A stretch of DNA of 64,000 nt from Ulota crispa. Taxonomy: Eukaryota > Streptophyta > Bryopsida > Orthotrichales > Orthotrichaceae. A program made the position numbers and the translations under genes. Of the stretch, positions 25,643-58,326 are shown piece by piece. The stretch covers positions 5,038,727 through 5,102,726 of the forward strand of contig OY987245.1 of the NCBI GenBank assembly GCA_963920765.1, read 5' to 3'. Within the stretch, counting starts at the first letter, position 1; each line of letters begins with the position of its first letter. The notes below the pieces were generated by a model. The model had not been told where the DNA came from, did not search any database, and was given only the letters and a program-made list of their open reading frames with translations.

Positions 25643-26045
25643 CCCCTAAACGTTGGGGTGGTCACCGTGCCTGCCCATCTACAGTGTTGCATAATGAATA
25701 GTGACATTTACAGTGGTGCTCTCTTGTTAAATATTATTTTTAAAAATTGCAAAAGTCCATAGTGCATGGTGCCCTCATAAAAATTGCAAAAGTCCATAGT
25801 GCATGGTGCCCTCATAAAAATTACAATAAGAGTAGCTTGGTACCTAATACCATGACTTAGAATTTTTTCACAATTTGAGCTACTTAAAAATATGAGTGCA
25901 TTTAACGAGATAATTTTTTGCCTTCTCTTATGGACCATGTGTATTTGATCACTTCTAAAAAAATTAAGTAAAAAACTACTCTTTTTGGCTCACAGAATGT
26001 TTTTTTAATTCCCAGCGAACGATAATCGTCTACGGCGTTTAAGAG
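25643..26045. mobile_element. TTAA-bounded element, family T1, copy 1
   Basis: Left end CCCCTAAACGTTGGGGTGGT follows ATAA (a likely mutated TTAA); the right end CGGCGTTTAAGAG precedes TTAA at 26046-26049. The interior shares TGCAAAAGTC, GTGCATGGTGCCCTCAT and the near-terminal GAACGATAATCGTC with the other T1 copies. Unlike them, it has a 37-bp tandem duplication at about 25744-25817. Confidence 0.75.
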
Positions 26046-26462
26046 TTAATAAATCTCATATTACCGATAACAAAACAAAATATGGGATATTCTCTCCCAT
26101 ACTGTTTTTTCTCCCGAGGCTTCATTCTTTATACTTTGCATTAAAATTGACATAATATATAAAATTACTATGACTTCGATGGGACTGAGAAAAGATCTAC
26201 AAAGTATCCAAAACAAAAAGATAAATAGAGTACCCAGAAGAAAAAGACGGTGGAGCCGCCAGGAGTCGATCCCGGGACCTGCTCGCACCGAAACGCCTGC
26301 TGAGGGTTTATACGAACTCTTCATTGGGGGTTTTTATTATTTTTGCTAAAAACCCTTGAAAACAGGGTAAAAAACGGTTCACTGGAGAAGCAGAGCAAGC
26401 GTGATGAGGGAGAAATAAGGCAGTGACTTGGTCACAAAATAACTTGTAAAACCTGATTACGT

Positions 26463-26584
26463 TATGGAACGTTCGTTGGTCAGAGTGTCACAGGATATAA
26501 TTTGCCGTTCCCACTCGCGGCTCCCGTTGCTGGTTACAACCAGCAAATTATATCTTGCAATGCTCCTCCCAACGTCCATTCCAT
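26463..26584. repeat. Long hairpin with 43-base arms
   Basis: Arms 26463-26505 and 26542-26584 are near-complementary: TATGGAACG at the left is answered by CATTCCATA at the right, and GGATATAATTTGC by GCAAATTATATC. The loop is GC-rich and contains the short palindrome GCTGGTTACAACCAGC. It could be a miniature element or a small-RNA precursor; the sequence does not decide. Confidence 0.6.
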
Positions 26585-26586
26585 AG

Positions 26587-27696
26587 TACATTTAGGTTGT
26601 CCCATACTAATTTCTTGACATTTCACGTTATTTAAATATTTATCAAGACTACAATAATTTTTGCTCGGGGGTCACACCTCTTTACGATTGGATACCACTT
26701 GCAATAATAGGGTAATTAAATGGGGGGTATTTAGATTTTTTAAGGTAAATTTTTCCTCCATTTCTTTAGATAAAAAGCTACTTTAGTGTATTTTAAGGTA
26801 TCCTATGCTTATTTCTAAACGGTTATATGACCTAATTTTTCAAACCCTATTTTTTTTACAAACACAAAAGTATCATAAGAAAAAAATATGTGCATACAAT
26901 GGGTTTATAAAAGACTTTGGCCCTTACAAGCATTTGAATTACAAAAAAACACTTTTGAAAGAGAAAACACAACAAACAACATGAAGCTAAAACAAAGAAC
27001 CAATCAGTCCTACACCACACACAATCTTATGCAGACAACCAATTACACTTCCCCACCACACAGAAGCTTAAGAAAAGAACCTATCACAATTCCACATCAC
27101 ATACAAGCTTGTATGCTCTTGCCGAGTTGTCCAAGTAATTTTGAACAAATTTCCCTCCATTCTTTTCAAAACTTGGACAGAACGTACTTAATTTTTCATT
27201 CAAACTTGTCAAACAATAATAATTAAACTCATCCTACTAAACACTTTCTAGATGATCCTATATTTCCTTACCTATTTTTTTCTACAAAATTCTAAATAAA
27301 GGCATTATTCACCGCCCTATTTTACATATAATGAAGTAAGAGACATTTTTTTGATGCTATGGTATTTCTAACAAAAATATAAAATCTACTTCCAATGAAT
27401 AAAATTAACCTTATTTTTAACTCACGTAGTTTACTAAAAATTGGAGAGTAACCTCCCTGAGAATTTTTGGCAATAATTAATGTGATAAACAATGGAGGAA
27501 GCAAGCAGATGTTGGCACAGCAACAAGCACCAAAGCTAAAGAGTAAGAAAGTTGAAGCTTTACACAAAATCAAGAATTATTGTAGCATAAAAAGAGTTGC
27601 ATGCCCCTCCATGTGGCTAAGGGTAAGTCATGAGGTAACTTTGCCAAAGTAAGGCAACCTAATTGTTAAGGCAATTTAAATGCACTATTTGGTATA
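26587..27696. mobile_element. Family C element, diverged copy with extra internal sequence
   Basis: Left part CATTTAGGTTGTCCCATACT and right part GGTAACTTTGCCAAAGTAAG match the ends of the family C copies at 27723 and 44456. The distance between them is about 1.1 kb rather than 300 bp, which suggests an internal insertion or a longer parent form. The extra DNA is AT-rich with no recognisable protein. Confidence 0.5.
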
Positions 27697-27722
27697 GTGA
27701 AGCTCAAAATCTTCCTAGTACC

Positions 27723-28024
27723 TACACTAAATATTGTGTTTAGGTTGCCCCATACTAATTTCTTGACCTTTTACACATTTTTTAAATACTTATTGCTGCT
27801 ACAATAATCTTCATTAGTAATTACTACAATTTTTTTTAAAGGTTTAGCAACAACAACAAAGCTCTAGAACAACAAAATAATGCCTTCCAAGTTGTAAATC
27901 ATGTGAAATCAAGTTTTGAGAGGGTTAAATGCACCTAGAAGTGCCCAAGTGATGAGTCACAAGGTAATTTTCCAAGGTAAGGCAACCTGATTGTCAAGGC
28001 AACCTAAATGCAATATTTAATGTA
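27723..28024. mobile_element. Family C miniature element, copy 2
   Basis: Left TACACTAAATATTGTGTTTA and right ATGCAATATTTAATGTA are inverted repeats that extend inward through GGTTGCC/GGCAACC. The right arm carries two successive copies of AAGGCAACCT. The interior (GCTACAATAATCTTC, AGTGATGAGTCACAAGGTAA) is shared with the copy at 44456-44760. There is no coding frame. Confidence 0.75.
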
Positions 28025-28162
28025 GTATGGATTGTAGTAAGGTAGACACACCCAATTCCAACCAATAAACCTAATGTCGTTCAAATGTTCCTAAACTTTA
28101 CATTTGGGTTCTAAAATCTAGGGACATCGCAGATGTTTTATTTTTGGGTATGTCTACCTTAA

Positions 28163-28506
28163 CCCTTGAAAGATGGATGGGTGGCCATGCCTACCTTCTA
28201 CAGTGGTTTCTACTATGGTGTGGCACATGCCCACCCATTAAAATTTTGTTTCTTAAAATTGCAAAAGTCAACAGTGCATGGTGCCCTCATGAAAAGTGCA
28301 AGATGGGCAGCATGGGACTTAACACCATATCTCTTAATCTTCTCACAATTTGGGTTATCAAAAATATGAGTGCATTTGCTGAGATCGTTTTTTACCTTCC
28401 ATAATACATCACTTACAAAAAAAATTAACTGAAAAACAATTTTTTTCTATAACTGAGCTTTTTTAATGACCAAAGGACGATTTTTGTCCTTGTCGACATT
28501 TAAGGG
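28163..28506. mobile_element. TTAA-bounded element, family T1, copy 2
   Basis: TTAA stands at both borders (28159-28162 and 28507-28510). The ends are CCCTTGAAAGATGG and CGACATTTAAGGG. It shares TGCAAAAGTCAACAGTGCAT and GGTGCCCTCATGAAAA with the copies at 37644 and 44825. A near-terminal GGACGATTTTTGTCC hairpin is present. Confidence 0.8.
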
Positions 28507-28560
28507 TTAAGGAGATTTGACACATGCCTAATGCACTAGGCCTCCACATGACCAAACAAT

Positions 28561-29713
28561 GGGAATTACTGAACCCCGGTCAACGTTTGGAATACAAGGT
28601 CCCTAGACGCCACTTTTATGGCCTTTGGTTGACTCAATAAGCCCACGGCTGCTTTGACCGGAGTCACCGGGGCACCCCGTTGGAAAGTCAATCCCAAGCA
28701 GCCTTTGGGAGAATTGGCAAGTCCACCTTTGGGGATTCTTTTCTGGGCCAGCGGAAAGAAAAGGTTACCCGCCCCCGCGCCCCGGTGTTGTTTATTGAAC
28801 CCCACCCCTACAGCTTCGGCCCGAGCCTCCGTCCGAGCCTCGTCAGTCATCTCTCCCTAGGAGACTCTGCTGCACGCTCAAAGCTCTTTGCAGCTTCACA
28901 GCGTCCGGCATTCGGCTCGTTGCAGATTGCATCTCATGTGAATGTCACACACTATATCGCCTCTTTGTTAGCCGGACCAGATTTTCCATCATTTCAGCTT
29001 TCGCATGCGGTAAGCGATGCTTGATTTGGTGGAGTATTGCGGAAATAGGACGAGAACACGATCGGGAGTGGTTTGCGACGTGCAGGTGGAGCGGTGTGGT
29101 CGATTTAGAGATAATCATTTGTTTTTTGATGCTTCTTTTGCAAAAACTGCGGTGATGTGACGATTAGATGTTTTCTTTAGAAGTCGGACTCGTGTGATTG
29201 GAACTAGAGAAGAGTGGCGTGGCAGTGGCGATGGCGGTTGTGCTGCATTGGAATGGCGTGAAGTATGAGTAGAAGAAAGAGTAGAGTGATGCACGAGGTT
29301 GATTGTGTAAATTATATAATGAATTTGGATGTTTGTATAGTTGCTGACGCATTCGCTGATGCTCCTTTTGTAAAAACTTTGGTGATGTGACGATTAGGTG
29401 CTTTCTTTAGGAATCGGACTCGTGTGATTGGAACTAGAGAAGAGTGGCGTGGCAGTGGCGATGGCGGTTGTGCTGCGTTGGAATGGCGTGACTTATGATT
29501 AGGAGAAAGAGTAGAGTGATTGATTGCGTAAATTATCTAATGGATTTGGATGTTTGTATAGTTGCTGACGCACTCGCTGATCGCGTGTGTTTGGTTACTT
29601 TATTGTAGATCTAATTTGAGCTCTGCTATTGAAAGAGGAAAAAGATAAGCTGGTAGAATATTGGAGGACGGACGAGTGATTTTGATTGCACCGCGCTTTT
29701 GTCGTTAAGCGCC
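28561..29713 (+). promoter_or_regulatory. ACLB promoter and leader with a 5' UTR intron
   Basis: Composition turns GC-rich at 28570-28900, as expected of a promoter and first untranslated exon. A donor at 29009/29010 (GCATGCG|GTAAGC) and an acceptor at about 29608 (TTATTGTAG|ATC) would remove a 600-base leader intron. The second leader exon, 29609-29713, contains no ATG before the start codon, which fits an efficiently translated mRNA. The transcription start is not visible, so the leader structure is inferred from splice signals only. Confidence 0.5.
29128..29585 (+). repeat. 230-bp tandem duplication in the ACLB leader intron
   Basis: Two copies begin at 29128 (GATGCTTCTTTTGC) and 29358 (GATGCTCCTTTTGT) and run into each other. 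Long stretches are identical, for example GGAACTAGAGAAGAGTGG and GGCAGTGGCGATGGCGGTTG. The second copy has a short deletion before GATTGCGTAAATTAT. The duplication lies wholly inside the proposed leader intron. Confidence 0.85.
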
Positions 29714-32700
29714 ATGGCGACGGGGCAATTGTTCTCGCGCACAACGCAGGCTCTTTTTTATAATTACAAGCAGAGTCCTGTGCAGCGCATGCTCGATTTC
29801 GACTTCCTTTGTGGTATGTTCGCTGCTTTTTCATTATACACTACTTTACTTCACTTTCGTAATCGAGTTCTCACTCCTTTTTGTCGCCAAGTTATGTTGA
29901 TTACACCAATTAGAATTATATAATGGTTTCCTTAATTTTTTACAACGCCCTTTTTTTGAACATTTAGACTTGCTTAGCCGGTGAATGCTTCAGCATTTTC
30001 TGTGATAAATTGTATTTTGGACTGTAATAGTCTATTTTACCTTTTTCTCTGTAGAGCAGGTCCAAATTTTTAAGCTTTTTCTTCCGGTTCTTGTAGCCAG
30101 AATTTATTTTTATTATCCTCTTCTCACCATTTACTTGGATCATTTAAAAGCAGTATATACTTCTATAGCAATGTTTCTGTTTCTATCACCACTACCGCGT
30201 GTTCACCTTATTTAAATTTACTTGCTCCACGTGAACTCGAAACTGTCAGATAATCGAAGCTGTCTCTTTCTCAATTCACCTGTCGTCGAAGCTTTGTTGT
30301 AGTGCATGCATATCCAATTGTTAGTGTTGAGTACCCTGATTTCTTCCTATGAAGTTCGGGAAATGTCGCTTATGTATTGTGTACGAATGCTCGCGAAAAA
30401 CTATGCACTTTGAACACAATCAGCAATCGAGCGCTCGAACTCTAGGTTTAGTCCTGGAGGTTTTCGGATCACCATGGTTGACACCATTGTAATCGTCCCG
30501 AATGTACAGGAAGAGAGACCCCATCTGTGGCTGGTGTGATCAACCCGGGATCTGATGGTTTCCAGAAACTCTTTTTTGGACAAGACGAAATCGCTGTTCC
30601 TGTTCATGGCAGGTGTGTTCGACACCCGTGAGATTGACCAATTCTCCTCTAGAGCGGTCTCTGAAGTAGTGATTAAATTTTCATTTACAACGCCTACGTA
30701 ACCATTAATGCTTTCTGATAAATATCCCTGGAAAGTTTTCATTCGTGTAAATGTAAAAATAGTGATTTATATGTAACCATTGTGTGAAGTGATTACTGTG
30801 CTTTCTATGCCCTGAATGCTGTCAACACCGAACTTGTGAAGATTAAATTACTTCTGGAGCTAGATTCAGGTTATTTGCAAATTTTAAGCCAGTCTTGAAT
30901 GAGATTGGGTAAACGAAAAGGCTAAACTGTTATTGTTTTTGGTCCTGCAGCATCCCTTCGGCTTGTAAGCGCCATCCAACAGCCGATGTTTTCATCAACT
31001 TTGCATCATTCCGCAGGTGTGTAATATCACGTAGTGCGCAAATGATTGATGTGTTGTCGTTGTTTAGTATTGCTCGGATTTACTGCCCACGCGTTTAATT
31101 GTGCTACTATTGAGAAGCCTCCTCTATTTAGTATCTTATAGAACGTCCATATCTCATTGTAAGAAGCAGTACGCTGCTGTCCCAAAAAGACGTCGTGATT
31201 TGGAGTTATAAGGTTTAAGGAAACCACGACATTTTTTTGGGACATGAACATTCGTTGCACTACACAGAACTAAATCTTTGTTCGCAATGGTTGCATTTCA
31301 GCTTCTTTTCAGTTTCTTTAAAATTCGTTGAGTATAGTCACTGACTTGAATGAAAACTCTCATTTAGTGCCTATGCTTCATCTATGGAAGCTCTTAAGCA
31401 GCCGACAATCAGAGTGATCGCAATCATTGCTGAAGGAGTTCCCGAAGCAGACGCCAAGAGACTCATTGCGTATGCTCGGGCCAATAATAAGGTATATTGG
31501 ACTTTCCCTTTTCCAAATTAGAGAATTCGTAATACTAGGATGTACAGCATCATCGCCGCCAATAATAGGAGTTGGATTGGATTAAGATCAATTTAAGAGG
31601 TCTTTTAAATGCGTCACCTTGTGACATAAGACGTCTTATCGAAACACCATAATATCTCGAAACGCGTAATTCCTAGAATTTCTATTTATGTAGCTTGGAA
31701 GTGCAATTTGTCCTTGGAGCCCTTGGCCTATCTATTGTGAATTAGCTTTCTGCTTGTTTATTGGCATACATTTTAGTACGACATCTGTAGAAGTGTTTTC
31801 ATTAAGTTGCCCTCATCGCTTCTGTTTTCAGGTCGTAATTGGCCCTGCCACTGTAGGAGGCATTCAGGCTGGTGCTTTCAAAATTGGCGATACTGCAGGC
31901 ACATTGGACAATATCATTCATTGCAAGCTTTACAGACCAGGATCTGTAGGATTTGTGTCCAAATCTGTAAGAAAACTGTCATAACAGAACCTATGTTTGA
32001 TTTATAGTTGCTTCCTGCGTTTTTCCCAAGAACTTTTATTTATGTGCTACAACCTTTTTTTGAGAATCGGTCTATGTGTATCGCTTTTGAAATATCCAAA
32101 TCAGAATTATCTGGATTCCTCGGTAGAGGCCCAGCACATGGCCAACATCAGCTTTCATGTTCGGAGAGCTGTTAAAGTGCAGCAAATGCATGCATTAGTA
32201 GTGTGCCTGACTGGACTTGGATTATGTGAACAGGGGGGTATGTCAAATGAGATGTACAATGTCCTCGCTCGTGTTACTGATGGTCTCTACGAAGGCATCG
32301 CCATTGGTGGAGATGTCTACCCTGGGTCCACGCTTTCAGATCACGTGTTGCGCTTCAATAACATTCCGCAGGTACCTACTACTGCCAACTTCTAAGAATA
32401 GTCTTTGGCAGGCTTCAAGAGCCAAGTGCAGAATTATTGACTTTCTCCAAAATATTTTGAATCCCGCGTGGTAAAGTATCTTGATTATGTACCCTGGACT
32501 GCTACCGTTTAGTTTTTTTTCCCTTGAATATCTGTAATGATGTTATTCTTTGGTACACAGGTTAAGATGATTGTTGTGCTGGGAGAGCTGGGAGGAAAAG
32601 ACGAGTACTCTCTTGTTGATGCCCTGAAACAAGGGAAGGTCAGCAAGCCAGTGGTGGCTTGGGTTAGTGGCACTTGTGCCCGCCTTTTCAAGTCAGAGGT

Positions 32701-34932
32701 CCAGTTCGGCCATGCTGTAAGTTCTTTCGATACTTTATTCATTCCCGGCTTCTATAAAAATAGAGGATCATATAGGAGCATTATTTTTCTTATGTGCTCG
32801 TGTTACTGATATGTCTCGGGTTTGACTGTAGGGCGCAAAGAGTGGTGGTGATGAGGAATCTGCTCAAACTAAAAACAAAGCTTTGGCTGATGCTGGAGCT
32901 ATCGTACCTACCTCTTTTGAAGGTTTGGAAGCTACCATAAAAGCTACATACGATTCACTGGTATATCTTCAACGGAAACCATGATTCTTATCTTGTGGAG
33001 TTGAAGGCGTGATTTATGATACAGTCGGATATTTGGAAGAGGTGTCAAAAAGATACTGATAAATTAGTTGAATCTCAATGGCAGGTAGAGAAGAAAACTA
33101 TCATTCCAGTGAAGAATTTTGTTCCTCCCACGGTTCCAGAAGACCTTAATTCCGCTATCAAGAGTGGAAAAGTGCGGGCGCCCACACACATCGTGTCTAC
33201 CATCTGTGATGACCGAGGTATCTTGAAACGGAAATCATTTTATTTTTATTATGTGCTTTGTTAGTTGCTAAAATTTGTTGCTCCAGGTTTCCTTTTTCTC
33301 TTTGACAGCACTTCTCCACTTGTTACTTGTGCTACTTTGAAAGCTTTGGTTTTTTTAATGCTGTTCCTATTTTATACGATCACATACTCTTCCTGTTAAC
33401 TGATTGAGTACTAATAGTAAAGTATACGAAGATTGTTTTTTGGCGTGTCCGAAATATTGACTATGCATGTTTGCATACCGCAGGTGAAGAGCCAACATAT
33501 GCTGGTGTGGCAATGTCCACAATTATTGAGAAAGACTACAGTGTCGGTGATGTTATTTCACTTCTTTGGTTCAAGCGCAGTTTGCCTCGCTACTGTACCA
33601 AGTTCATTGAGGTACAAGTTCTGTCATCTAAATCTTCTATGATTTTTCGTTGAGAAAGCAAAGATTATGAGCGTTGGGAGCCTTGATTTTAGGTGCACGT
33701 TTGGCCGTTGCAAATGTGAAGCCCGATCGTTCTTCTATTTTCTGTACTGTCATTAAATGAAACTATTTTATTGCTGATAACTTGTCCTTTGTTTACAGAT
33801 GTGCATTATGCTATGTGCGGACCATGGTCCCGCTGTATCTGGTGCACACAACACAATTGTCACAGCTCGTGCTGGAAAGGATTTGGTATCCAGTCTTGTC
33901 TCCGGTATGTGCTCCAACAAGCGTTTTAGTGGTTGACTGCTTCTTGAATTATTCATTTTGTTCTGATACAACTGGAGTACAGTGGATCCGATTTTCTCGA
34001 ATTTGGGCACTAAAGTTGTGCTGTCTCAAATGTAAATAGGTCTGCTTACTATCGGTCCACGTTTTGGTGGAGCTATCGATGATGCTGCTCGCTATTTCAA
34101 GGATGCTCAAGACAGGGGTTTGTCTCCTTATGAGTTTGTGGAGAGCATGAAGAAGAAAGGCATCCGGGTTCCCGGAATCGGCCACAGGTATAGCACCTTC
34201 TTGTATGAGTTCTTCAGCTTCCTTCATATGATGCGGTGTTTTAATCACGCAGTGTAAAGAGCAGAGCTTCTTCCCACCTTTTTCATCTCTGATCAACAGG
34301 ATTATTGGCTAACCTTTTCTTATACTACTCGTGCTCATATTTCATGCTGCTCGGTTCTGTCTGGACAGCAAATACTCACCACATCGATCCCCAATTCAAA
34401 GCTTATAGTACTGCTGTCCCATTTGCAGGATCAAGAGCCGCGATAACAGGGACAAGAGAGTTGAGCTATTGCAGAAATACGCACGCACGCATTTCCCAAA
34501 CGTGAAGTACATGGAATATGCTGTGACTGTGGAGACTTACACATTGACCAAAGCGAGCAACCTCGTCTTAAACGTTGATGGGTGCATTGGATCTCTGTTT
34601 CTGGATCTGCTGTCAAGTTGCCAAATGTTCACCGCACAAGAAATCACTGAAATCATCGACATCGGTTATCTCAATGGACTTTTTGTTCTGGCAAGGAGCA
34701 TCGGTTTAATTGGGTATGTTTTCACACCCAACTTCATGATCAAGGACCTTCGGACTCACTTTTTTGTACCTCTTGATTGTGGTGTATTATTTTTCCAGCA
34801 TAAACAACTGCCAGTTTTTTTCTGACGTGCGGGCTCTTGCTGCTCTGCAGACATACATTTGATCAGAAGCGCTTGAAGCAGCCTCTGTACCGCCACCCAT
34901 GGGAGGATGTGCTGTACGCAAAATACTCATGA
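29714..34932 (+). CDS. ACLB: ATP-citrate lyase subunit B
   Basis: Catalytic subunit that, with ACLA, makes cytosolic acetyl-CoA and oxaloacetate from citrate, CoA and ATP. Coding exons: 29714-29813, 30510-30612, 30951-31016, 31368-31491, 31832-31966, 32234-32371, 32561-32716, 32832-32960, 33085-33217, 33484-33611, 33799-33904, 34040-34187, 34429-34713, 34851-34932. The 1833 nt encode 610 residues, close to the 608 of Arabidopsis ACLB. It begins [20 protein letters not shown] and ends HPWEDVLY plus a short tail. The CoA-ligase part has GPATVGG, SKSGGMSNEM and the phosphohistidine motif FGHAGAKSGG (His about 273), which spans an exon junction. The citrate-synthase-like part has GIGHRIKS (catalytic His about 488) and NVDG (Asp about 539). 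All junction phases agree. The ATG lies in GCGCCATGG, a good initiation context. The gene looks intact. Confidence 0.95.
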
Positions 34933-36299
34933 ATTCTGAACAAGCATAGAGGCCTGTCAAGAGTGTGCATGTAGTGTGAAGAAATCGTCAACAATTTTCG
35001 TATTAGGTCACACAAATCCATGGTTTAGCAGTAGCACACAATGGAATACCACATACAGGTGTATACATTGCCAAACACCTATTCTTTTAGGGCTTCAATA
35101 GGTCAGCCCTGATGAAGTTCGCCCTTTCGAGACCAGTGACTGGAGGTCTTTGTTGAAGCCTCTTGCTTCACAGCCGTCAGCTATTGTTTATTCGCGACGT
35201 ATTATTTGTATTTCGATCACCATCACCGACTGCTACGTGACCATTTGTTAAAATATTGATTAGGAAATAAGCACAAGTTTGAATAGAAGTGGTACTTCTA
35301 GTTGAAATCTTACGAGGTGATATTTAAAGTGGGGACGTTTGGATCTGTCAACATTGAAATGAAAATAAGTTGATTTTCAAAGGAAGGAGGAGTTGTGACT
35401 GTGGTGATATTCAAGTGGTTTTTACTAATGCACTACTCTTGCATGCAACGTGTTTCAAGTTTAGTTTTGAATACAATGGTGGTGGCCCCTTTCCTTGGCT
35501 TTCAGCTGCTTTTGTGCAGAGACCTGAAGAATTCTATGTACAAAACTCATGTCGAAGGTTCAATCAGTTGTAGATTCACACCACCAATCTTTCACCAAAA
35601 ACATCAAGAATTCAAGGTAGGATTCAAGAACTGATTTCACATCTGTGTTTGTTTGTTTTGGCATGGTTCAATCAACCTCTAATTAAAAGAATTAACTAGC
35701 AAATTTGTGTTTCTTGGTAAGTTTTTTTTTGTGGGTTCATTTATCTAGTGGTATCTACTCACTTATAAGATGTTGAGTGAAGTGAGGCAGAATTGGCATT
35801 ATGGGACTAATTTTGGGAAAGAATTAGATATAGTTGCTCTTTTGATGAAAGGTAAAAGCACAATTGAGGTTGTAAAATATCTTTGTTTCTTACAATTCAT
35901 AATGAACAAAGTGAATAGAGTGAAGAACAAACATTGTGGTAGTTTAGGATTGTTAAGAAGAGGTTGTCAAGAGATCTTAACCATTTTTAGAAAAACAAAA
36001 TGAAGTGCATTTTGGTTGTTAGAAGGCTAGAAACAATTGTTGAGGCAACAACAGTTTTGGAAGTGGATAGCAAAGTAGGATTTTGTAATAACACACTTAC
36101 AAACTACTTTGAGATATGTTGAATTGGGGGTTCGTGAAAAGGTGTTAACTTTGTTTTTCCACAAAATAATATACAATAGAAGCTAGGTTTTGTTACATTT
36201 CACAAACCAGCTGGTTTGTAAAAGATTGGAATAGGGTAATATATGATGGCAAGACAAGGATAAACCATTTCAATGATGGGAAGACTTAACCCCTGAGTG

Positions 36300-36529
36300 C
36301 CTAGCACAAGTTTGCTCAAACCCAAACCCTTTGGAATTCATTACTATCAAACTTTCACCTAAAAGGAATCCACATAAATTGATTGTACCGATTGGTAGGG
36401 AACATATACTTGGAGCTCCGTGGAAAGGGACATGTCTTTACACTGTACCATTGAAAAGATTATAATTGTCAAACCTTGAATTTTTTCAAAATTGAGAAGC
36501 CATATTCTGGACCCTTGGGAGCTCAGGGG
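36300..36529. mobile_element. TTAA-bounded element, family T5
   Basis: The perfect terminal inverted repeat CCCCTGAG/CTCAGGGG is flanked by TTAA at 36296-36299 and 36530-36533. The 230-bp interior has no coding frame and no similarity I can see to the other TTAA families beyond the termini. Confidence 0.65.
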
Positions 36530-37643: not shown

Positions 37644-37991
37644 CCCTTAAAGGACAGATGGATCACCGTGACTTGCACTGCTTGTAGCATTCTACAGTGT
37701 TTTGCACATGGGCTCCAATAGTATTGCTTCAAAAAATTGAAAAAGTCAACAGTGCATGGTGCCCTCATGAAAATTGCAAGAAGGGGAGCTTGGGAGCTAA
37801 TACCATGTATCACAATTTGGGTTACAAAACAAAATGAATGTATCTCAAGAGGTAATTTTTGCCTTCCATGATGCACTACACATTGATGATCACTTCTGAA
37901 AAAAAATCAGATCAAAATCAGTCTTTTTCTAAGATATAGAGTCGTTTTTCTAGGGCAAAGGACGTGTTTCGTCCGTGCTGACGTTTAGGGG
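37644..37991. mobile_element. TTAA-bounded element, family T1, copy 3
   Basis: Flanked by TTAA at 37640-37643 and 37992-37995. The ends are CCCTTAAAGGACAG and GCTGACGTTTAGGGG. It shares TCTACAGTGTTTTGCA, GTCAACAGTGCATGGTGCCC and the near-terminal GGACGTGTTTCGTCC hairpin with its relatives. The right-hand TTAA is also the left border of the next element. Confidence 0.85.
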
Positions 37992-37995
37992 TTAA

Positions 37996-38718
37996 CCCCT
38001 AAAAGACCACTTGTCCCCACGGGGGATAAATGAGATTTTGGGCATGTACTTATGGCTAAACAACTTTGTGTATTTTTTTGAAACTTTTTTTATGGAAGAT
38101 GGGGAATTCAAAGATCTGTGTAGGCATCTAATTTTTACCTCATTTCAACGTTTACTAAAGAAGTTAAAAATGAATTTATGAGAATTTTAGTTCAGTGGGC
38201 ATCCCAAAAACTTTTTTAAAATTTGATTTTTTTTAAAATAAAAATTTGAGTATAGTTCTTTAAACTTACATATATGTGGGAAGCTTTGAATTATTCAATT
38301 CTAATTGATGAGATGAAAGTTATGAGAAGTTTTAGTTTGCGAGTGGGTGTGGAAAATATCAAAACTATGCCTACATGCAAACTAAAACTTCTTATAACTT
38401 TTATCTCATAAATTAGAATTGAACAATTCAAAGCTTCTCACATATACGTAAGTCTAAAGAACTAACCTTAAATTTTTATTTAAAAAAAATTTAATTTTAA
38501 AAAAAGTTTTTGGGTTGCCCGCTGAACTAAACTTCTCATAAATTCATTTTTAACCTCTTCAATAAATGCCGGAATGAGGAAAAAATTAGATGCCTACACA
38601 AATCTTTGAATTCCCCATCTCCCATAAAAGTTTCAAAAAATCAAATAAAGTAGTTTAGCCATAAGTACATGTCCAAAATCTCATTTGTCCCCCGTAGGGA
38701 CAAGTGGTCCTTTATGGG
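37996..38718. mobile_element. TTAA-bounded giant palindrome, family T2, copy 1
   Basis: Bounded by TTAA at 37992-37995 and 38719-38722. The two halves are inverted copies of about 330 bases each: ACCACTTGTCCCCACGGGGG is answered by CCCCCGTAGGGACAAGTGGT, and CTTATGGCTAAAC by GTTTAGCCATAAG. Only about 40 bases at the centre (near 38350) are unpaired. No protein is encoded. Transcription across it would give a long double-stranded RNA. Confidence 0.85.
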
Positions 38719-40683
38719 TTAAAAGATTGAGAACATTGTAAATTCTTAATAAGAAGAGTTATAAGGTGTAATATACAAGAGTATTTAAATGATGATCTTC
38801 AAACATTGGTTTAGAGTAAGATTCTTACATCATATCCTTCAACCGTATTTGAAATTGCACTTATTGTTGTTTATTAATTACTGTGGAAACAAATAATGCA
38901 AGATTCCTTTTAAAGTTGATTATAAATTGAAATTCTTGTTTTTCGGAAGTCACATTCTTTCACGATTTCAATGTTAGATTATGTCTTGTAGTAATTTTTT
39001 AAGATTTTTAATGAGGTTTGTTACTTGAAGCTAAGCTTAAAATATTATTTTGTGAACTCTAGAAAATGGGTTTTCACAATGAACTAAATTTGCACCTCAT
39101 TGAATTACATATTGATTGCAATTTTTTTTTGGAGATTTATACAATCAAACACTAAAATTTTAAACAAAATCTAATAACATGTGAATGAATAAACGATTGA
39201 GTTTATATGTGCATAGGGTTTGTTTGATTTTATTGATTGTTTCAAATTTAAACATCATGTCAAAGCACCCACTCACATTCATTGTCTTTCCATCTTATCT
39301 TAGTTAGTTCACTTTCAGATGGAAGACCAGTAAGATAATTCAATACACTATAAGGGAAAGGGCTCTTAATTGATATAAAGTTGACATAAAATTCTCCAAA
39401 GTGATACTATGACACATTTGGTTCCCTCATTGTGTTAATTTTTGAGATTTTCATAAGTTTGTGTTAGATTTTTGTTAATTACTTCAACGCCAAAATTACA
39501 TTTGTAAATGTTTGTATAAAAGATCATCCATCCAACACTAATTTCATTTGCTTACAAGCTTAGGATGAAAAGAGGAAAAAAAAGAAAAATTACTTAACCC
39601 TGTTCTTCTCCTCAACCATTCTCCAAAACCCTACCATGCTCCCTGTTGCCATTCTCCAAAACCCTAACCTACTCCCCGCCGCTACAACACAAGCATGAGT
39701 GTTGCAGTATCCGCAGCAGCTCTCCTCATCGCTCTTCCTCTTGTGTTTTTTTCTGAGAGTTTACATTTTTTGTTGCTTCTACACCTTACAACAAGCCAAT
39801 TTGCTTTCGATTTGGTAAGCTTTCTCCCACGGTTGTTCCTCCGCGCTCTGCCTAGGGTTTGCTCTTTGTCACACATGCCATAATGTTTTGATGGCAGCTA
39901 AGTTATGTTGTAAGAGATTGTGTTCATGTTTGATCACTAGTTGGTGAATTCCAAGAACTAGGACAAGACTGCCCCTTTTCATGGAACATTCCTAAACTTG
40001 TATGAAAAGGAGAGAAAACAAGTTAGCAATCTCAATTGCACTGTTGGTAAGGTATTTCTTAGCAAAGTCCATTATGAATGTAACACATTGTCTGTTTTCA
40101 GTAGAATGTGATCATGCAATTGTAAGTTGAAAATGTAAGTTTATTGTGAACATAGGGAAGTATTTTCAATGTTCCATCTCGTGCTTAAGGGTTAATGTAA
40201 ATTGCAAATTTCAAGTAGTTTTGATTGTGACACCAAACAATCTATCACGCCCTCTTGTTTTTGAATGGGTACTATTAGTATTACACATAGTTTTTATCAA
40301 CAAGAGAATTTTTGCCTGAAGCCATTTTCTCTGGGTTGCCTAACTTGATCCAACCTTTGGAAGTAGATACCATACCCTCTATATAGCATAGTCGTTTTTG
40401 TCTCACTGGCTGATGATGGAGTTCAATATGTTGAAGATCTGATGAACTCAATGGAGCTCAGGCATTGGATGGCAAAACTACCTCCAATCAAGGTTGCCAG
40501 TTTACCTTGCGGTATATAAGTGTAACTTGAAGTGCCTGGTTGTTGCCCTTTGTGTTGACGATAGACACCACATGAGAAGGACTCAAAGAGAGGAATCTAG
40601 TTTCAACTCCTTTTCTGCCCAATTGCAAGGATGTCCAAGATCTAACTAACTAGCTTGCATAACAGGAGTTGTCAGTTTGGTAT

Positions 40684-40813
40684 ACTAGTAGAAAACTTTG
40701 TTATAGTCAACATAAACTACATGGTGTTTTCTTGTTTCTAAAAGAAAAATTTGCATTAGAAGCAAGAAAACATCATGTAGTTTATGTTAACTTTAACAAA
40801 GTTTTCTTCTAAA
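40684..40813. repeat. Long hairpin with 57-base arms
   Basis: Arms 40684-40740 and 40757-40813 are nearly complementary: GAAAACTTTGTTATAGT is answered by CTTTAACAAAGTTTTC, and CATAAACTACATGGTG by CATCATGTAGTTTATG. The loop is only about 16 bases. The form fits a very short transposable element or a hairpin RNA precursor; there is no target duplication I could assign. Confidence 0.65.
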
Positions 40814-41697
40814 GCTGCTAAAGATCTTGGACCACCAAATTTACAAGGAGACCTAGTGTTGTATTGTTGTGGTGATGCAGGTGCGTGTACACTTGGGTAG
40901 GTATGTTTCAACTATCTCTCCAATTCCTTACGTTCAATGCTGATGATTTCAACTAAGCATTTGTGTCATACAAAGTAGATCGGTGTGAGAATTTATATTA
41001 TAACTTTGATAGAGTTGTTGAGTCAGTGATAGGATTATCCAACAAATTTCTGGCAACTAAAGGTCAAAGATAGTGTATGTAGTTGTATTTACATACTTAT
41101 TTCAGTTTTTGTAGAGTGTTAGTAGTTGTAATTGTGTGTAGAGGAGTTGTCAATTTTGTATGCTTTTTCATTGCACAGCTATCAGTGTTGTCTACTACAC
41201 GTATGTGTGATACATGAAATCCAAAAAGTGAATAGAGTGGAAGCAATTTGTTATATTCAATTACTGTACTTGCAAGTGTTATGTGTGTGCAGAAATGGAC
41301 GATGTAACATTTTATGTAGCCCATGTAATACAAGATCGACTTTTCTCATTGCATATGGAACAATAATTTGTTTTTCTAGAAGTGCATTGCCTTTAGAGTA
41401 TGCAGCTATGCAACAGAATGCATTCCAATTTGGGAGAGGAGCACTCTTAAATGGACCCTTCATAAATTCATGTACTTGCAAACTACACGCATGGGAGACC
41501 TAAACTGGCAACTGCATTGGCCATGGTTCACAAGTGTACTATAAACTTGACAATAGCATGTCAACTATCAACACAGAATTGACATAATTTATGTCAAAAA
41601 GGATGTCCTAGTCACCACATCCTAATCAACACAATATTTGACACAATAATGTTAACTTTGTATGAATTAGGACCATATTCTCCTTGTAATGGCTATC

Positions 41698-41862
41698 ATG
41701 TGGGAGACCCATTGGCTAATTCATTGTCACATGGGAGATTGTTTGGCTAATTCATTGTCACGTGGGAGACCTGTTGTCTAATTCACTATCACGTGGGAGA
41801 CTTGTTGTTTAAATCACTCGCTAATTCATTGTCATGTGGGAGACTTGTTGGTTATTATGTTT
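41698..41862. repeat. Degenerate 31-bp tandem repeat
   Basis: About five units of the pattern CACGTGGGAGACTTGTTG followed by TCTAATTCATTGT, with the first base pairs varying between CATGTG, CACATG and CACGTG. The fourth unit is lengthened. Each unit carries or nearly carries a CACGTG palindrome. Confidence 0.8.
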
Positions 41863-43774
41863 TATTGTTAATACATGTGAATAGCTTGTTCCTTTCAAAA
41901 ATACAGTGATGTGACATACTTAAAGTGAATCTTTTATTTTTCTCTCATTAAGGTAAGAACATCAACAATTGCAACAAAATTTTAGAATATCCATGAATAA
42001 AAAATTTGAATTTGTAATATTTATGTTAACAAACCATAAAATGTTTGTATCACATGTGGTTGTTTTGATTGATGATTATTGTACCTTTGTGGTATTGGAA
42101 TTGCCATTGCAACACTTCCTTATTTTGCTCAAGAAGTATTTTAAATTTAATAATAGATATTTTATTCTCTCTTTTTCTTGAGTGAACATTTATATTTTCT
42201 TATATGATTTTTCTTAATAGTCTATTTTTAATAAATTACTATTTCCTCTGGTTGTGCTCAAAGTTTTTGTAAATGTCTTTTTGAAAACTCTTTAGACAAT
42301 TACAGGGTTGTTCACGACAAAAAAAAAAAAAAAAAAAGATAAAAGGTGTAAAGCATGGCTTTTTTTCTTTTCTTTTTTTCTTGTAAGGCCTTCATCAAAT
42401 CTTTATGAAAACAATTCAATTAACCATTGAGGCACTTAGCGATTAAACAAAAATATCATATTTGCATGTATCTAGCCATGGAAGTTGATAACGTTCTTGA
42501 AGAGCCACACTTTGTTTTATTGACAATTACTTAAAATTTCCAAAATGTCACTTAGATTGAGTATAAATATTGCAATTTATACAAACTATAAACGGCCTTG
42601 TTTCATTCTTGTGGTTCAGTTATTTAAAAGTAGATAGCCAATTAAGCACTTTACTTTGCCAAACTGAATTTTCACATTTACTTTTCAGAGTAATAGCCAA
42701 TAAAGTGATGTCATGTAGCACTATTTGAGCAAAAATTGATATTTTTATACAAAACATACTATCAAGCAACAAACATGTTTTTTCCATTTTCTGTATTAGA
42801 TTTAAGATTTGCATTATAAGTGCTTGTCTCCTTTGCATTAAAGGAGTCAAATTTTTATCTATGCTCAAACTTGAAAATTATTCAATGGTGGTTCCTGAAT
42901 AGAATCAAAGTGGATTGTTTTTCCATTTCTAAGGCAAATATAAAATCTGAAATCAATTTATAACATCAACATGAAGAAAGAGCTATATTTTTCAAATAAA
43001 TTCTATCATCATCTTATATTAATTATAGTTTTTTTTCACATATATATAAAAAAAACTAATAAGACTACATAGGACAATATGTTTGTGATATATAAGTTAC
43101 AGCTATCTGAAATAATATAATATAATAGTGATTTTACTAAATATGTTTATCATGCCAAAAACTAATTTTCATGAAGAAATATGTATTTTACTAAATTTGG
43201 TCATGATCACCCTAACATTAAAATCTCTATAGAAGGAATTTTGAAACTTTTTGGAAATGTTTATTTGAAAGAGGGATGTGCGTATGGATGTCTCCTACGC
43301 AATCAAATCTCAAAACTTCATCATCAATGTTTATTAATCAACTTTCTTGTAAAACTATGATTTTGACACAAAACCATTTACCAAAATAAGATTTTGATTT
43401 TTAGTAACTAAAATTTGATATGCTTAATCAAGATTGCATGAGGATCACATTCTAACAATGTGAGAATGAAATGTCAATATATAATCTTTGTTATACATAC
43501 TTCTTTGAATGCCATAAAAAGGTGGTATGTAGACTTTCTTGATGGTGCTGTATAGGTACATCAAATTTATAACATTCTCAATCTTTATTTCTGATATGAT
43601 AAGATGAATTGTTTAAAACCTTTGATGTGTTTTGATTTGCAATGGCTGAAAAATGGCCCTCTTGAACACAATAAATTGCATAGTTTTTTAAAGTTTCTTG
43701 AACCTGTTTTTATTGCCGCACTTACATTTTACAACATTATTTTACCACAATCACAATTTTGGTAATATATTTAA

Positions 43775-44310
43775 CCCCTAAACGCCCAAGGGGTAAGGGT
43801 AGAACATAGATGCCTTAAAAATTGTTTTTGTAACTACAATGAGGTTTGCTTCAAAAAAGAAAACTAGAATCATGATGTTTAGTAATTCCCCATACGGTCA
43901 AACATACAAAAAAAAAATTCAACTCTTATTTAATGAATTTAGAAACATTCATCATTTAATATTCATCAAAATTACAAATTCTATTCATATAATTTAAAAT
44001 TGGTATGATTGGTTAAAAATAGACATTCTATTCTAAAACCCAAAAATGCAATCTTCTCGAAGGAGTGGACATCATTAGTTTCCCAAAATAGTAAATCTTG
44101 TAATACTAGCAAATACTGAAGTGTTTATTTTTGAAAAAAATTCCTTGATGGAGTTTCACTTGGATTGACATGATTCAAATTGGGTTATGAAGTAGAGTTG
44201 CTTTCCTATTTAATTTTAATTTTAATTTTTTCAAAAAAAGTTCTTTTTTCATTTTGGGCAGACTGCAAAAAGGGCAACAACTAGAAAATGGTTGGTTGGG
44301 CGCTTAGGGG
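43775..44310 (+). mobile_element. TTAA-bounded element, family T6, copy 1
   Basis: TTAA at 43771-43774 on the left and TTGA (a one-base change) at 44311-44314 on the right. The ends are CCCCTAAACGCCCAAGGGG and GGGCGCTTAGGGG. The interior includes CCCATACGGTCAAACAT and TTTAATGAATTTAG, which recur in reverse at 57797-58326. Confidence 0.75.
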
Positions 44311-44455
44311 TTGAATGATGGCATTTTGAAATGTTGCTATATTATACTAACTTTCATATATGTGATTTTTTTCTAAAGCAAAATAATTTTCACATATGTT
44401 TTTTTTTCCCAAAGTGACTGATTCAAATTTTGCTTCCTAATTAGAGAAATCAATG

Positions 44456-44760
44456 TACACTAAATATTGCGTTTAGGTTGCCCCACACTAATTTCTCAAC
44501 TTTTCACACTATATAAATATTTCCAGGTGCTACAGTATTTTTCATCAAATATTGCTGGAGCAAACCATTTTAAAGGGCCTATCAACAGCAATGAAGCTGA
44601 AAAAAGTCAAACTAGTGGCTTCCAAGTCATAAACCATGTGAAAGCTAAATAATTAGTGAGTTGAATAGGCTTCCAAGTGACCAAGTGATGAGTCATGAGG
44701 TAACTCACCAAGGTAAGGCAACCTAATTGTCAAGGCAACCTAAATGCAATATTTTGTGTA
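44456..44760. mobile_element. Family C miniature element, copy 1
   Basis: Left TACACTAAATATTGCGTTTA and right ATGCAATATTTTGTGTA are inverted repeats extending through GGTTGCC/GGCAACC, 27 bases with few mismatches. The interior matches the copy at 27723. Target duplication is not obvious. Confidence 0.8.
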
Positions 44761-44824
44761 ATTAATATGCTTATTTTTCGATGTTTTCTCCTATTCAAAA
44801 CCCCCAAACCTAGTACCCCTTTAA

Positions 44825-45170
44825 CCCTTAAGTGTTGGGTGGGTCACCGTGGCCTGCCCTGAGTTTGGCTTCTACAGTATTTTGCAACTGGTCACCAATA
44901 ATATTGCCTCAGAAAATTGCAAAAGTCAACAGTACATGCTGATTCCATGAAAATTGCAATAAGGACAACTTGAAACTTAACGAGTGATTATGAATTTGGG
45001 TTTTGAAAATTATGAGTGTATTTGATGAATTTTATTTTTGCTTTCCGTGATGCACTATGCATTTATGATCACTTCTGAAAAGAAATCAGATCAAAACCAG
45101 TTTTTTTCAGGGATATAGTGACTTTTTTCGGAGGCAAAGGACATTTTTCGTCCGGGCCTACGTTTAGGGG
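44825..45170. mobile_element. TTAA-bounded element, family T1, copy 4
   Basis: TTAA at both borders (44821-44824 and 45171-45174). The ends are CCCTTAAGTGTTGGG and GCCTACGTTTAGGGG. It shares GGGTCACCGTGGCCTGCCC with copy 1 and has the near-terminal GGACATTTTTCGTCC hairpin. It is not coding. Confidence 0.85.
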
Positions 45171-45443
45171 TTAAGCTTGGAGATAAGCGTTGCTATTTCA
45201 TTTCATTGACCTGACCTGGAAGTTACAGTAAGAATAAATAGTTTCCTTTTTTGGAAAAGCCAATTGCTGCTGTGGCCTGAGCTGACTTGGATGATTGTGG
45301 GGTGAACACGTGGCCACGCAGCCAAACTTTTCCACCATGAGGGTCCTGTTTTACCGCGGTCAACTTCTTTTTTGTGTACCTCACTGTGCCAGAAAAAAAA
45401 GGGCTGCTCACCAGTGAAAGTATTTTGGATGAAGTGGCCTTAA

Positions 45444-45566
45444 GGTATGTTCACACTTGGCGTTAAGAGGGGTAATAGCAAGGGAAAATTAGATGTATTT
45501 GGACATATCTTTAGATTACATTCATATTGCTAATATCTCTCCTAACATCAAGTGTGAACATATCAT
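45444..45566. mobile_element. Short miniature element with TATGTTCACACTTG ends
   Basis: The left GGTATGTTCACACTTGGCG is mirrored by CATCAAGTGTGAACATATC. The whole is about 120 bp; the inner arms also pair partly (AGCAAGGGA, AATATCTCTCC are unpaired). No target duplication could be assigned with certainty. Confidence 0.65.
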
Positions 45567-45881
45567 TAGCTTTTTTTTCTAACTAAAAAATGGTTGAGTA
45601 GCAAGTATAGCTATATTTTTTTACATGTGTAAAGTTGGATGCTTTCAACCTTCTATCAAAACTAAATCTCATGATTGCTTTGTGAGAAATTAGAATATTG
45701 CACTAGTAGGATGAGGTGACATCAAGTGGAACCCTAAAAATCGGGCTCCTACTCCCAAACCCATGTATAAAAGTTGACTAAACATTTTACATCTTTTCAA
45801 AAAACACTATAGAACAATAAGCCACAGCAATTTTGATGTAGCAAAAAAGCGGTAATTAGCACAAAACGTTTTCACTGCTGG

Positions 45882-46033
45882 CACTATAAGGAAAATTGTC
45901 CAAAATGACAAAAGTATGTCCTAACCAACGTGGCTAAATCTACATAAATTGTCCAATTTGACAACCTTTTTTGTTATTTTGGACACATTTAATCAATTTG
46001 AACATGTCAATTAAGACACAATTTTTTGTAGTG
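45882..46033. mobile_element. CACTA-like miniature element, family D, copy 2
   Basis: Ends CACTATAAGGAAAATTGTCC and ACACAATTTTTTGTAGTG. The trinucleotide TGG stands on both sides (45879-45881 and 46034-46036), the 3-bp duplication expected of CACTA elements. It is a relative of the copy at 3336. Confidence 0.8.
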
Positions 46034-46369
46034 TGGTCACCACAGTGTCTCTCTGCATTTTAAAATTGTTGGGTTTTTAAAGTACAAAAACAAATATTAA
46101 AATACATTTTCATGTGCCGTTGCGGATGTTTTTGTTTGATGGATGACAAAATCATATTTTGTAGGACGGAAAAGTCATTTTTTATTTAATTTTAAAAAAG
46201 TGACCTTAGAGATGTCATCCATCGAGGAAGGTAAAAAATAAACTCACTAATGTGTTCATATTAAATTCATAAAAGGGGTGTTTGGCCTCACTTTGTCTTC
46301 TTGTAATTTTCATGAGGGCATGGAGCAACAATGCATGCTAATTTTGCAATTCTTGGCAAATAGTATTAA

Positions 46370-47293
46370 CCCGTAAACACTCAAGTGGTCTCTTGGGGCC
46401 AAGTAGAGTTTTGGGCATGTACTTAGAGCTAAACTATTTTGTGTGATTTTTTGAAACTTTTGTGAAAGATGGGGAGTTCAAAGATCTGCATGGGCATCTA
46501 TTTTTTTCTTCATTTTGACATTTATTGAAGAAGTTATGCATGAATTTCTGAAAATTAGGGGAGAATCAAGGAGCCCAAAAAAATGCATTTAAAATAATAA
46601 TAATCTAAAAATTGGTTCTTTAGTTTTACGTACACGTGGGAAGCTTTGAATCACTCAATTTTGATTGATGAGGTGAAAGTTATGAGAACTTTTGGTTTGT
46701 TGGTAGGTATGGGACTCCCAAATCTTCATCCTTTTGCCCCTTGTAAGATTTGGTGCTTTACTTTTTTAAGCTCTTAGTGTATTTGTTTTTTGACTTTTTT
46801 TTCCCAACTGTTGTAGCCTTGGTCTTCACCGTTTGGATCAAGGCAATTCAAATTTCTCAATTTTACACAAATCCTTCAATTTTGCCTAGTGTATATGCAA
46901 ATTTCATGACCTTATGGCATTGCAAGATTTTACAAAGTATGATTCACACATCCAATTCATTCAAAAATTCTCCCACACTTACCTAACTTGATCTTCTACA
47001 TGGGAAAAATAAACCTCAACTTTGCATAGAGCAATTTTTTTGATATAGGAGCGGTTAAAGGCTTTTGAAATTTTTGTGTAGCACAGAAAAAACTATATTT
47101 TTCTCTTCAAATGTCAATATCTCACTCCTCTACATCTAGAATGAGCCAATTTTTTTCTCACAAGTACCTCCCATAGTCTAGGGCAAGATCCTATGGTTGG
47201 ATTTCCAAAAAAGATTTTTTTCCTACCTTCATTCCCCCAAAAGTGGCAGTTTTTAGTGAATTTCGCAGAAAAAAGGGCTTGGACCTTCAGGGG
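46370..47293. mobile_element. TTAA-bounded element, family T2, copy 2 (longer form)
   Basis: TTAA at 46366-46369 and 47294-47297. The first 340 bases follow the left arm of the 37996 copy, sharing GTTTTGGGCATGTACTTA and TTCAAAGATCTGC. The remainder is unrelated and ends CCTTCAGGGG. It is therefore not a full palindrome. It appears to lie inside a reversed T1 fragment. Confidence 0.65.
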
Positions 47294-47455
47294 TTAAATT
47301 TTGTGAGCACTTTCCTACAATTGCCTTACGCCACAATGACCGTCTTATTGTCCATGGGTTAAAAATAATTGTTGGAACTTGACTCCAAATTGAAATGGTT
47401 GTTTTAGGTAAATCTAAGGCTACATAATCTTACTGCCTAGGTCCACTTCATTTAA

Positions 47456-48121
47456 CCCTTAAAATTTTCACCCAAAATGGGTTGATCATTTTTTAGATGG
47501 TCATTTATGAACTTAGGAATGTAAAGAGTCACTTGAAATTTGACTCATTTGAAAGAGAAACAAATTAGCTTTGTAGTGGTGTTTTCAATTTTCAAAGAAG
47601 AGTCACTATTGAATTTAAAAAAAATTCAAACCATGGGTGGTCTTGGAGTTGTAGTGTTAATTAAATTTTGGCCCTAGATTTGTGAAAATCTTCTATTTTG
47701 CTCACAATTTTTGAAATTTAAGGGTGAAGTGGTCACTATTGCAAGACCATTTTCTCACCTATTTTTTACCTTAAAAATACAAGACTTGTTTCTATGCATC
47801 TGGAACTTGGTTACCTTGAGAATGAGCATAAGATGCCAACTTTTTAAATGTTACGTGTCCAAAAGAGCCAATCAAAGCACAATTTCAACTACTCCAAAAT
47901 ATTGGTTTCCTTGTAGTACGTTTTACATTTCTTCAATAATTTTCCAATCTAACTCTTGGATTGAAACCAAACTTTGTAGAGATGATAAGGACTTGGCTTT
48001 CTACAAGATATTACAGTTACTTTGGCCTAAAAATGACTCATTGTACTTCAAGCTTTCACCCTTTCACAACTTACAAAATCAAGATTCTAAACACTTTCAA
48101 AGTGGTTGAAAAATTTAAGGG
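47456..48121. mobile_element. TTAA-bounded element, family T3
   Basis: Ends CCCTTAAAATTTTCACCC and GGTTGAAAAATTTAAGGG form an 18-base terminal inverted repeat with few mismatches. TTAA lies at 47452-47455 and 48122-48125. The interior has an open frame at 47711-48109 without any recognisable domain, so I do not call it a gene. Confidence 0.7.
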
Positions 48122-48125
48122 TTAA

Positions 48126-48361
48126 CCCTTGAATGACCAAGCAGCCCTTTGCGACCAATACAATATGGAATATTTTTCTTGTATTTGGAATGCATCTACA
48201 CCTTTATTACATTTGAGATCAACAAAAAAATTAGAGTATAGATCAATGCTATTCTAATGAGGTAGTCAAGGTCCCAAATTAAAACTTTTTATTGGTAGCA
48301 AATGCCACTTATATAGTAGCATACATACTATGTATTGTGTAGTAGCTAGGTATTTTAAGGG
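48126..48361. mobile_element. TTAA-bounded element, family T4
   Basis: Ends CCCTTGAATGACC and GGTATTTTAAGGG, with TTAA at 48122-48125 (shared with the element before it) and 48362-48365. It is 236 bp long and non-coding. Confidence 0.6.
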
Positions 48362-48798
48362 TTAAAGTTGGCCCAATGCTCAATCCAATGGACCATCGAA
48401 TTTACCATCAAAAATTGAATCAATTCCCAACTTGATTCTGTTTGACCCAAATTTTTTTTTTTGTCATGAATTCACATTTTGGTATCAAAAATTTGATACA
48501 CAAGCAACCACGTCATCACCAAAACCTAATCGTGCTAGCTCTTAATATAAAACCTTGAGACTCAATTGATGTCCCAATCCTATGCTTTTTAGCAATCCTA
48601 TTGCTTCATTTTTAGGTTTTTAAAATTGAAGAATCACAAATCATTTTTAAAAAAAAAACCCCTTATTCTTGAAACAAATTCCCACTTTCTCGACACCTAG
48701 ATTTCTAAAAAGTTTGGTCATGTGACTTTTCAAAAGCAATCCTTGAATTAGGATTTGGGACACGAAATAGAACTAAAGACAAATTTCAGTGCTTTCTG

Positions 48799-57796: not shown

Positions 57797-58326
57797 CCCC
57801 CACTCAACCATTTTCTTGTTGCTACCCTGTTTTATAGGCTGCCCAAAATGAAAAAATAAAAGATTTGAAAAAATAAAAAATATATTCATATAGAAAAGCA
57901 AGTCTACTTTCCAACCTAGTTTGAATCATGTTAATCCAGGTTAAATTCCATGAAGGAGAATTTTTTAAAGACAAACACTTCAATATTTGCTAGTATTACA
58001 AAATTTACTATTTCAGGAAATTAATGATGCTTCTCTCCTTCAAAAATAATGCATTTTTGGAGTTTTGAATAGAATGTCTACTTTCAACCAATCATATCAA
58101 ATTTTAAATTCTATGAATAATTTTTTAAATTTTGATGAATAATGGTAAATGCTTCTAAATTCATTAAATAAGAGTCCAAAACATTTTTTGAATGTTTGAC
58201 CGTATGGATAATTACTAAAGATCATGATTCTTGTTTTCTCTTTTGAATCAACCTTCATTAAAGTTACAAAAACATCATTTTATAACTCATCTATGTTTTG
58301 CCCTTACCCCCTTGGGCATTTAGGGG
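57797..58326 (-). mobile_element. TTAA-bounded element, family T6, copy 2 (inverted)
   Basis: Reverse-orientation relative of the element at 43775. It ends GGGCATTTAGGGG just before TTAA at 58327-58330. The other end, near CCCCCACTCAACCATTTTC, lacks a clean TTAA (TCTAA is present), so that border is approximate. Shared inner words include TGTTTGACCGTATGG and CTAAATTCATTAAAT. Confidence 0.7.

Follow-up and report, generated by a model that had tools for sequence, protein, structure and literature searches.

The 64,000-nucleotide stretch analysed here (hereinafter the window; C4:5038727-5102726) comes from a genome of 274.8 Mb in 157 contigs and contains, between positions 25643 and 48365, a group of short elements with CCC...GGG ends that are bounded by TTAA. 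These elements are very probably non-autonomous members of the piggyBac superfamily, of the miniature inverted-repeat transposable element (MITE) type, and native to a moss genome. Their membership in the superfamily rests on features read from the sequence, namely the target, the ends, the transposase domain, its catalytic triad and one element in which the ends and the gene are physically joined. While the piggyBac superfamily itself is known, the host and the scale are new here. The host is most likely a moss, as judged from two proteins of the plastid contig (C157, 112.5 kb): PsaB and PsaA find their best PDB chains in 7ksq, 6l35 and 8htu (1681 and 1642 bits), which we take to be Physcomitrella photosystem I, followed by 9lut (1643 and 1610 bits) and a further block from 1603 and 1572 bits downward. 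The land-plant origin surmised in an earlier note on this DNA is thus sustained.

There are 18 occurrences of the motif TTAACCCYT in the window, as against a mean of 1.48 and a maximum of 4 in 100 dinucleotide shuffles. Fifteen of these occurrences are ends of ten elements in the interval 25643..48365, one (58322) belongs to an eleventh element, and two are solo ends (5432 and 40187). The earlier note had described at least ten elements with TTAA or a one-base variant at their borders; we likewise find ten, assigned to seven families (A to G). Of these, eight are flanked by TTAA at both ends and the other two have the variants TTGA and ATAA (43775-44310, with TTAA/TTGA, and 25643-26045, with ATAA directly at its left end). 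The note's further statement that the ends begin with CCC(C/T)T holds for 17 of the 20 ends and fails for three, which read inward as CCCGT (46370), CCCAT (38718) and CTCTT (26045). Copies were sought in the window together with a set of fetched stretches, numbered L001 onward. One sampling round of 20 stretches, eight adjoining the window and 12 picked at TTAACCCCTAAACG places, was not random, and because L001-L008 and L017-L028 were picked at TTAACCCCTAAACG places the element density in them is unrepresentative. The elements and solo ends are as follows, with the strand given where one was assigned:

25643..26045: MITE of family A, 403 bp; 67-73% identical to the three other A copies of the window over longer stretches; putative TTAA duplication (25636-25639 and 26046-26049) and an extra TAA ahead of the left end
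28163..28506: MITE of family A, 344 bp; TTAA on both sides
36290..36529: MITE of family B, 240 bp; TTAA on both sides; 82% identical to L017 6303-6537 and 66% to L020 6707-6947
37644..37991: MITE of family A, 348 bp; TTAA on both sides; nearest other copy 92% identical over the full length among the best 40 of 2,864
37996..38718: MITE of family C, 723 bp, with long inverted repeats (fold-back); left TTAA in common with the preceding A copy
43775..44310: MITE of family D, 536 bp; TTAA/TTGA; 73-82% identical to seven other copies
44825..45170: MITE of family A, 346 bp; TTAA on both sides; 77% identical to 37644-37991
46370..47293: non-autonomous element of family G, 924 bp; both termini like those of a transposase-bearing element on contig C7
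47456..48121: putative element of family E, 666 bp; TTAA on both sides; inverted ends CCCTTAAAWTTTTC; recognised by its own ends alone
48126..48361: MITE of family F, 236 bp; TTAA in common with the preceding element; 74-82% identical to six other loci
57797..58326, minus strand: MITE of family D, outside the interval; flanked by TTAA at one end and by TTTA at the other, decayed end; 82% identical to 43775-44310
40187..40191, minus strand: solo end of the right type, TTAACCCTTAAGC in the inward direction; no partner found
5432..5436, minus strand: solo end of the right type, TTAACCCTTGAACG in the inward direction; no partner found

Families C and G have their left part in common (74% alike). 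When aligned with its reverse complement, the family C element is 86% identical across 730 columns, and further copies of it are present in L024, L021, L014 and L026, with one of the L021 copies being split by a family D element. The family F element is 83% identical to a copy adjoining the C7 element. No second copy of family E was found in the sequence compared, and hence its support comes from its own ends. Adjoining elements have a single TTAA in common at 37992-37995 and again at 48122-48125.

Across the genome, TTAACCCYTNAANG is found 40,141 times as compared to 158 times for the reversed control, and TTAACCCCTAAACG 2,002 times as compared to once. TTAA directly precedes 2,002 of the 2,529 exact CCCCTAAACG sites, with 313 for the reversed form. 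With two ends per element, the 40,141 ends would roughly correspond to some 20,000 elements. A matrix built from 144 ends yields the consensus CCCYTAAANGNCCAAG, in which TTAACCCYT was the selection rule and the remaining positions were not selected for. The ends are short, inverted and start with CC[C/T]T, as is typical of piggyBac; their common form, CCC(C/T)TNAA, stands on interiors that differ between families. Borders were also defined free of any motif, as the places where homology between copies stops, eight window elements being searched against the window and L001-L028 with exclusion of hits that start in the query's own place. TTAA stands at 59 of 70 such borders, while its background frequency there is 0.65% of positions; the alignment of borders proposed in the earlier note therefore comes out in favor of TTAA. 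These counts replace an earlier border table (TTAA on both sides in 26 of 44 cases and on at least one side in 43 of 44), in which TTAA had guided the choice of border.

Empty sites are taken here from related repeats in the same genome, i.e., from diverged relatives rather than the same site before insertion, and hence their letters may have changed; most of them came from the broadly sampled stretches. In all 46, the constant feature is a four-base joint without a gap; 18 of these joints read TTAA, 20 differ from it by one base and eight are something else. Thus, when related repeats stand in for the related strains initially envisaged, the expected four-base joint is recovered, whereas TTAA itself is recovered only in part. 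For 171 candidate end pairs, the flanks were joined and compared with the fetched sequence. Eight pairs gave hits across the joint, and three of these were counted; the five left out are a longer L021 pairing, a weak L014 hit, two L022 self-hits and a second L024 pairing. The family D element inserted in a family C element (L021 7772-8311) has 19 hits, some of which come from a single palindromic copy hit in both arms, with TTAA in seven, ATAA in eight and other joints in four; among its nearest relatives (85-92% identity) all five have TTAA. When the joined flanks of eight window elements were searched against the genome, joint-crossing places were found for 46370-47293 and 25643-26045, and none for the other six. 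For 46370-47293 six empty sites were fetched, five with TTAA and one with TTAT.

In agreement with the earlier note, which saw no transposase in the window and placed an autonomous partner elsewhere, none of 120 listed matches to PF13843 (DDE_Tnp_1_7, the piggyBac transposase domain) lies in the window, and the genome holds at least 120 such matches, the best with an E-value of 1.3e-73 (116 of 528 candidates scored). They are spread over contigs C1 to C11; a few genes give two matches each, and a count among the listed matches finds at least ten without stops. Fourteen control genomes have no PF13843 match, a weak control with at least one bacterium among them. The main open segments of five fetched loci (L029 to L033) match the domain with E-values of 3e-44 to 4e-67 and a further locus, L017, with 1.2e-25. 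Against solved structures, L030 matches piggyBat (9c0f, E 2.6e-24) and the T. ni piggyBac transposase (6x67, E 7.6e-20), and L033 matches the same two (6x67, E 1.8e-17; 9c0f, E 1.2e-11). Residues D268, D346 and D447 of 6x67, its catalytic triad, align to aspartates in both proteins tried, L030 and L033. The DDD-type piggyBac transposase that the earlier note proposed to look for is present many times elsewhere in the genome.

The open segments of different transposase loci are 34-62% identical to each other. The gene in L017:656-2337 (C1:1180656-1182337) is piggyBac-type with a probable intron at about 1139-1419. We considered it as a single-copy domesticated gene and rejected this, since 65-74% DNA identity to it is seen in at least 43 further rows, some of these being two pieces of one copy. 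As the same gap between the matched parts recurs in its relatives, it is probably a member of an intron-bearing lineage with many members.

The physical link between ends and gene is provided by an element of 8,025 bp on contig C7 (L035+L033 positions 908-8932, i.e., 11814408-11822432) that carries the L033 transposase gene, the frame of which is interrupted. Its ends are CCCCTAAAAGCCCACTTGTCCC and CCCCTAAAGGCCCAAGCCC, with TTAA outside, and are of the TTAA-CCCCTAAA kind. At its left end the element can be aligned with families C and G, and over its right approximately 65 bp with family G, the window copy 46370-47293 being among the aligned sequences. TTAA is present in all four empty sites of the C7 element (in L018, L020 and twice in L021; E 3e-24 to 1.5e-34). 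The element holds other inserted repeats, including a TTAA-bounded element at 2920-3837. Two further loci, L036 and L037, are 66-70% identical to it in coding and non-coding parts. We read an AGGGG-TTAA end at 6418 of L037 as the end of that copy, which may have been split by a palindromic repeat. This repeat, of about 170 bp (L037:6234-6407, also at L021 6771-6940), is perhaps a MITE of a different kind.

Taken with the ends, borders and empty sites, these genes support the piggyBac-like architecture first suggested for the window. We propose that a piggyBac transposase would have recognised the common terminal 12-16 bp of the elements, cut them out and inserted them into TTAA, duplicating those four bases. 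The short elements may have arisen via internal deletion, or from working ends that captured other DNA between them, and would have moved in trans. Because each such insertion would leave TTAA at both ends, elements could sit back to back with a single TTAA or be nested in one another.

Several observations weigh against this interpretation. Empty-site relatives often deviate from TTAA: it is present in two of seven for L009 8676-9633 and in none of seven for L024 7631-8349, where the nearest relative has TTGA. The three empty sites of 25643-26045 (L043-L045) all have TTGA and none TTAA, and suggest that the target of this element was the TTAA three bases outside its left end. Moreover, since TTAA is palindromic, a perfect empty site taken alone is also compatible with a 2-bp TA duplication and ends of the form ACCC...GGGT. 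As regards the C-terminal cysteine-rich domain of the piggyBac superfamily, L033 has a Cys-rich tail visible by eye that gives no Pfam zinc-domain match up to an E-value of 0.1. Of the eight transposase loci (L017, L029-L033, L036 and L037), the C7 element is the only one with both ends and empty sites. No flanking end pair was found for L029 and L036, and none recognisable within 4 kb of L029 and L030; extension of L030 to 10 kb gave a single right-type end (score 16.6) 2.5 kb away. L032 has degenerate ends only, while L017 and L037 have a right end only, L037 even with 3 kb more sequence; its left end went undetected, local alignment to the C7 left end being no better than shuffles. At a C3 locus (L041+L031) the left end at 3266 is strong (21.7) and the right end at 8284 weak (14.1), and the right border is uncertain because the right flank weakly resembles a MITE interior. 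An element spanning 3266-8284, with ends alike at 12 of 14 bases, was considered and left open after this flank match.

The best surviving alternative is that the short elements are of the Sola type (Sola3), or of another TTAA-targeting superfamily, with the piggyBac genes as unrelated residents. Sola3 indeed targets TTAA, and this option gains from the single fully bounded transposase locus and from the transposase link extending to families C and G but to none of A, B, D, E and F; Sola also figures on a published list of plant superfamilies in the part of PMC10741241 drawn on here. Against it stand the C7 element, which has a piggyBac gene and both ends in common with family G, and the termini themselves: CC[C/T]T starts of 12-19 bp together with TTAA are given as a piggyBac hallmark in a passage of PMC2872659, and a passage of PMC10813416 names CCCTT as the start best conserved in piggyBac. 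Consequently, we consider this alternative improbable. Kolobok elements likewise have TTAA at their borders, but an excerpt of PMC9587614 gives their termini as 5'-RR and YY-3', the opposite of the CCC...GGG found here, and this option is scarcely credible. PIF/Harbinger (Tourist-type) MITEs, found in many plants according to a section of PMC10741241, have TAA/TTA targets with letters overlapping TTAA that might be misread as such; however, a 3-bp duplication would not leave a CCC...GGG element flanked by TTAA at both ends, the great majority of homology-defined borders carry TTAA, and the empty-site joints fit four bases without a gap, leaving this reading barely tenable. Finally, piggyBac is best known from animals, which might suggest contamination of the assembly from an animal or a fungus, but the PF13843 matches lie on C1 to C11, C1 being 41 Mb, the ends occur about 40,000 times, and the same contigs carry scattered plastid fragments (many psaA/psaB fragments on nuclear contigs C1-C10, i.e., nuclear plastid DNA); contamination is thus exceedingly unlikely.

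The copies look old. Among the best 40 of 2,864 candidates, the relatives of 37644-37991 show 89-92% identity to it along almost the full length, with none closer, and for the C7 transposase the identity to its closest long relatives is 70%; for these two, the identities fit a past burst with no recent amplification.

Some other features were observed alongside the elements. An open reading frame of 477 amino acids with an AP2 domain (E 6.5e-15) lies at 60778-62211 on the minus strand. The stretch 50001-56000 is GC-rich (0.52-0.55) with a strong skew of G over C (0.30-0.45), unlike the window up to 50000, which is mostly below 0.46. A dispersed repeat with AAGGCAACCTAATTGTCAAGGCAACC is found at 27724-27988 and 44457-44726 and at L041:197-468, the window copies being 74-78% identical to the L041 copy. 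Further, about 2.7 kb of L019 (6169-8917) is open in six frames at once, presumably as a tandem repeat.

The moss system has the TTAA target, the CCC-starting ends and the PF13843 transposase with three catalytic aspartates in common with T. ni piggyBac and bat piggyBat. It differs from them in its host, in transposase lineages as divergent as 34-62% identity, in the probable intron of one group and in its very large non-autonomous population. The coral CMITEs and other piggyBac/TTAA MITEs described in passages of PMC2872659 are similarly short and non-coding, with CCCTT/CCCCT ends and TTAA duplication, a resident piggyBac-like transposase with common ends, and insertion at TTAA inside other elements; however, the coral elements are about 100 bp, whereas those of the moss are 236-924 bp, in seven families and in a plant host. 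Among land plants, the fern Ceratopteris has repeats labelled PiggyBac (1,230 pieces, 122 kb) in a section of PMC6890710. In the passages compared, this entry is a line in a repeat table, with no transposase, ends or target.

Older reviews reportedly name plants among piggyBac hosts. The opening summary of PMC10813416 does so as well, without naming a species there. In contrast, the relevant section of PMC10741241 lists seven plant superfamilies with terminal inverted repeats, piggyBac not being among them, and the passages of PMC9033089 that count six superfamilies in land plants do not turn up the word; to that extent, piggyBac is indeed absent from published lists of the usual land-plant DNA transposons, in line with the earlier note. 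PMC10619864 was followed as a lead and dropped, its 'piggybac' being, in the text concerned, the word piggybacking. Our search of the open-licence literature found no description of native land-plant piggyBac elements.

We posit, with about even confidence for and against, that mosses, and perhaps bryophytes more widely, have in piggyBac an ancient, native superfamily that is dominant among their cut-and-paste transposons. In this view, several deep transposase lineages would persist alongside one another, every one having its own end variant (e.g., TNAA vs. TCAT), and would jointly have seeded on the order of 20,000 short elements, with plant catalogues having omitted the superfamily. Should this moss be representative, plant annotation would lack an entire superfamily, and the elements that account for the approximately 40,000 TTAA-CCC ends may currently be listed as repeats of unknown type. 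The spread of piggyBac, whether by old vertical inheritance or by transfer into bryophytes, now becomes directly testable with other moss genomes.

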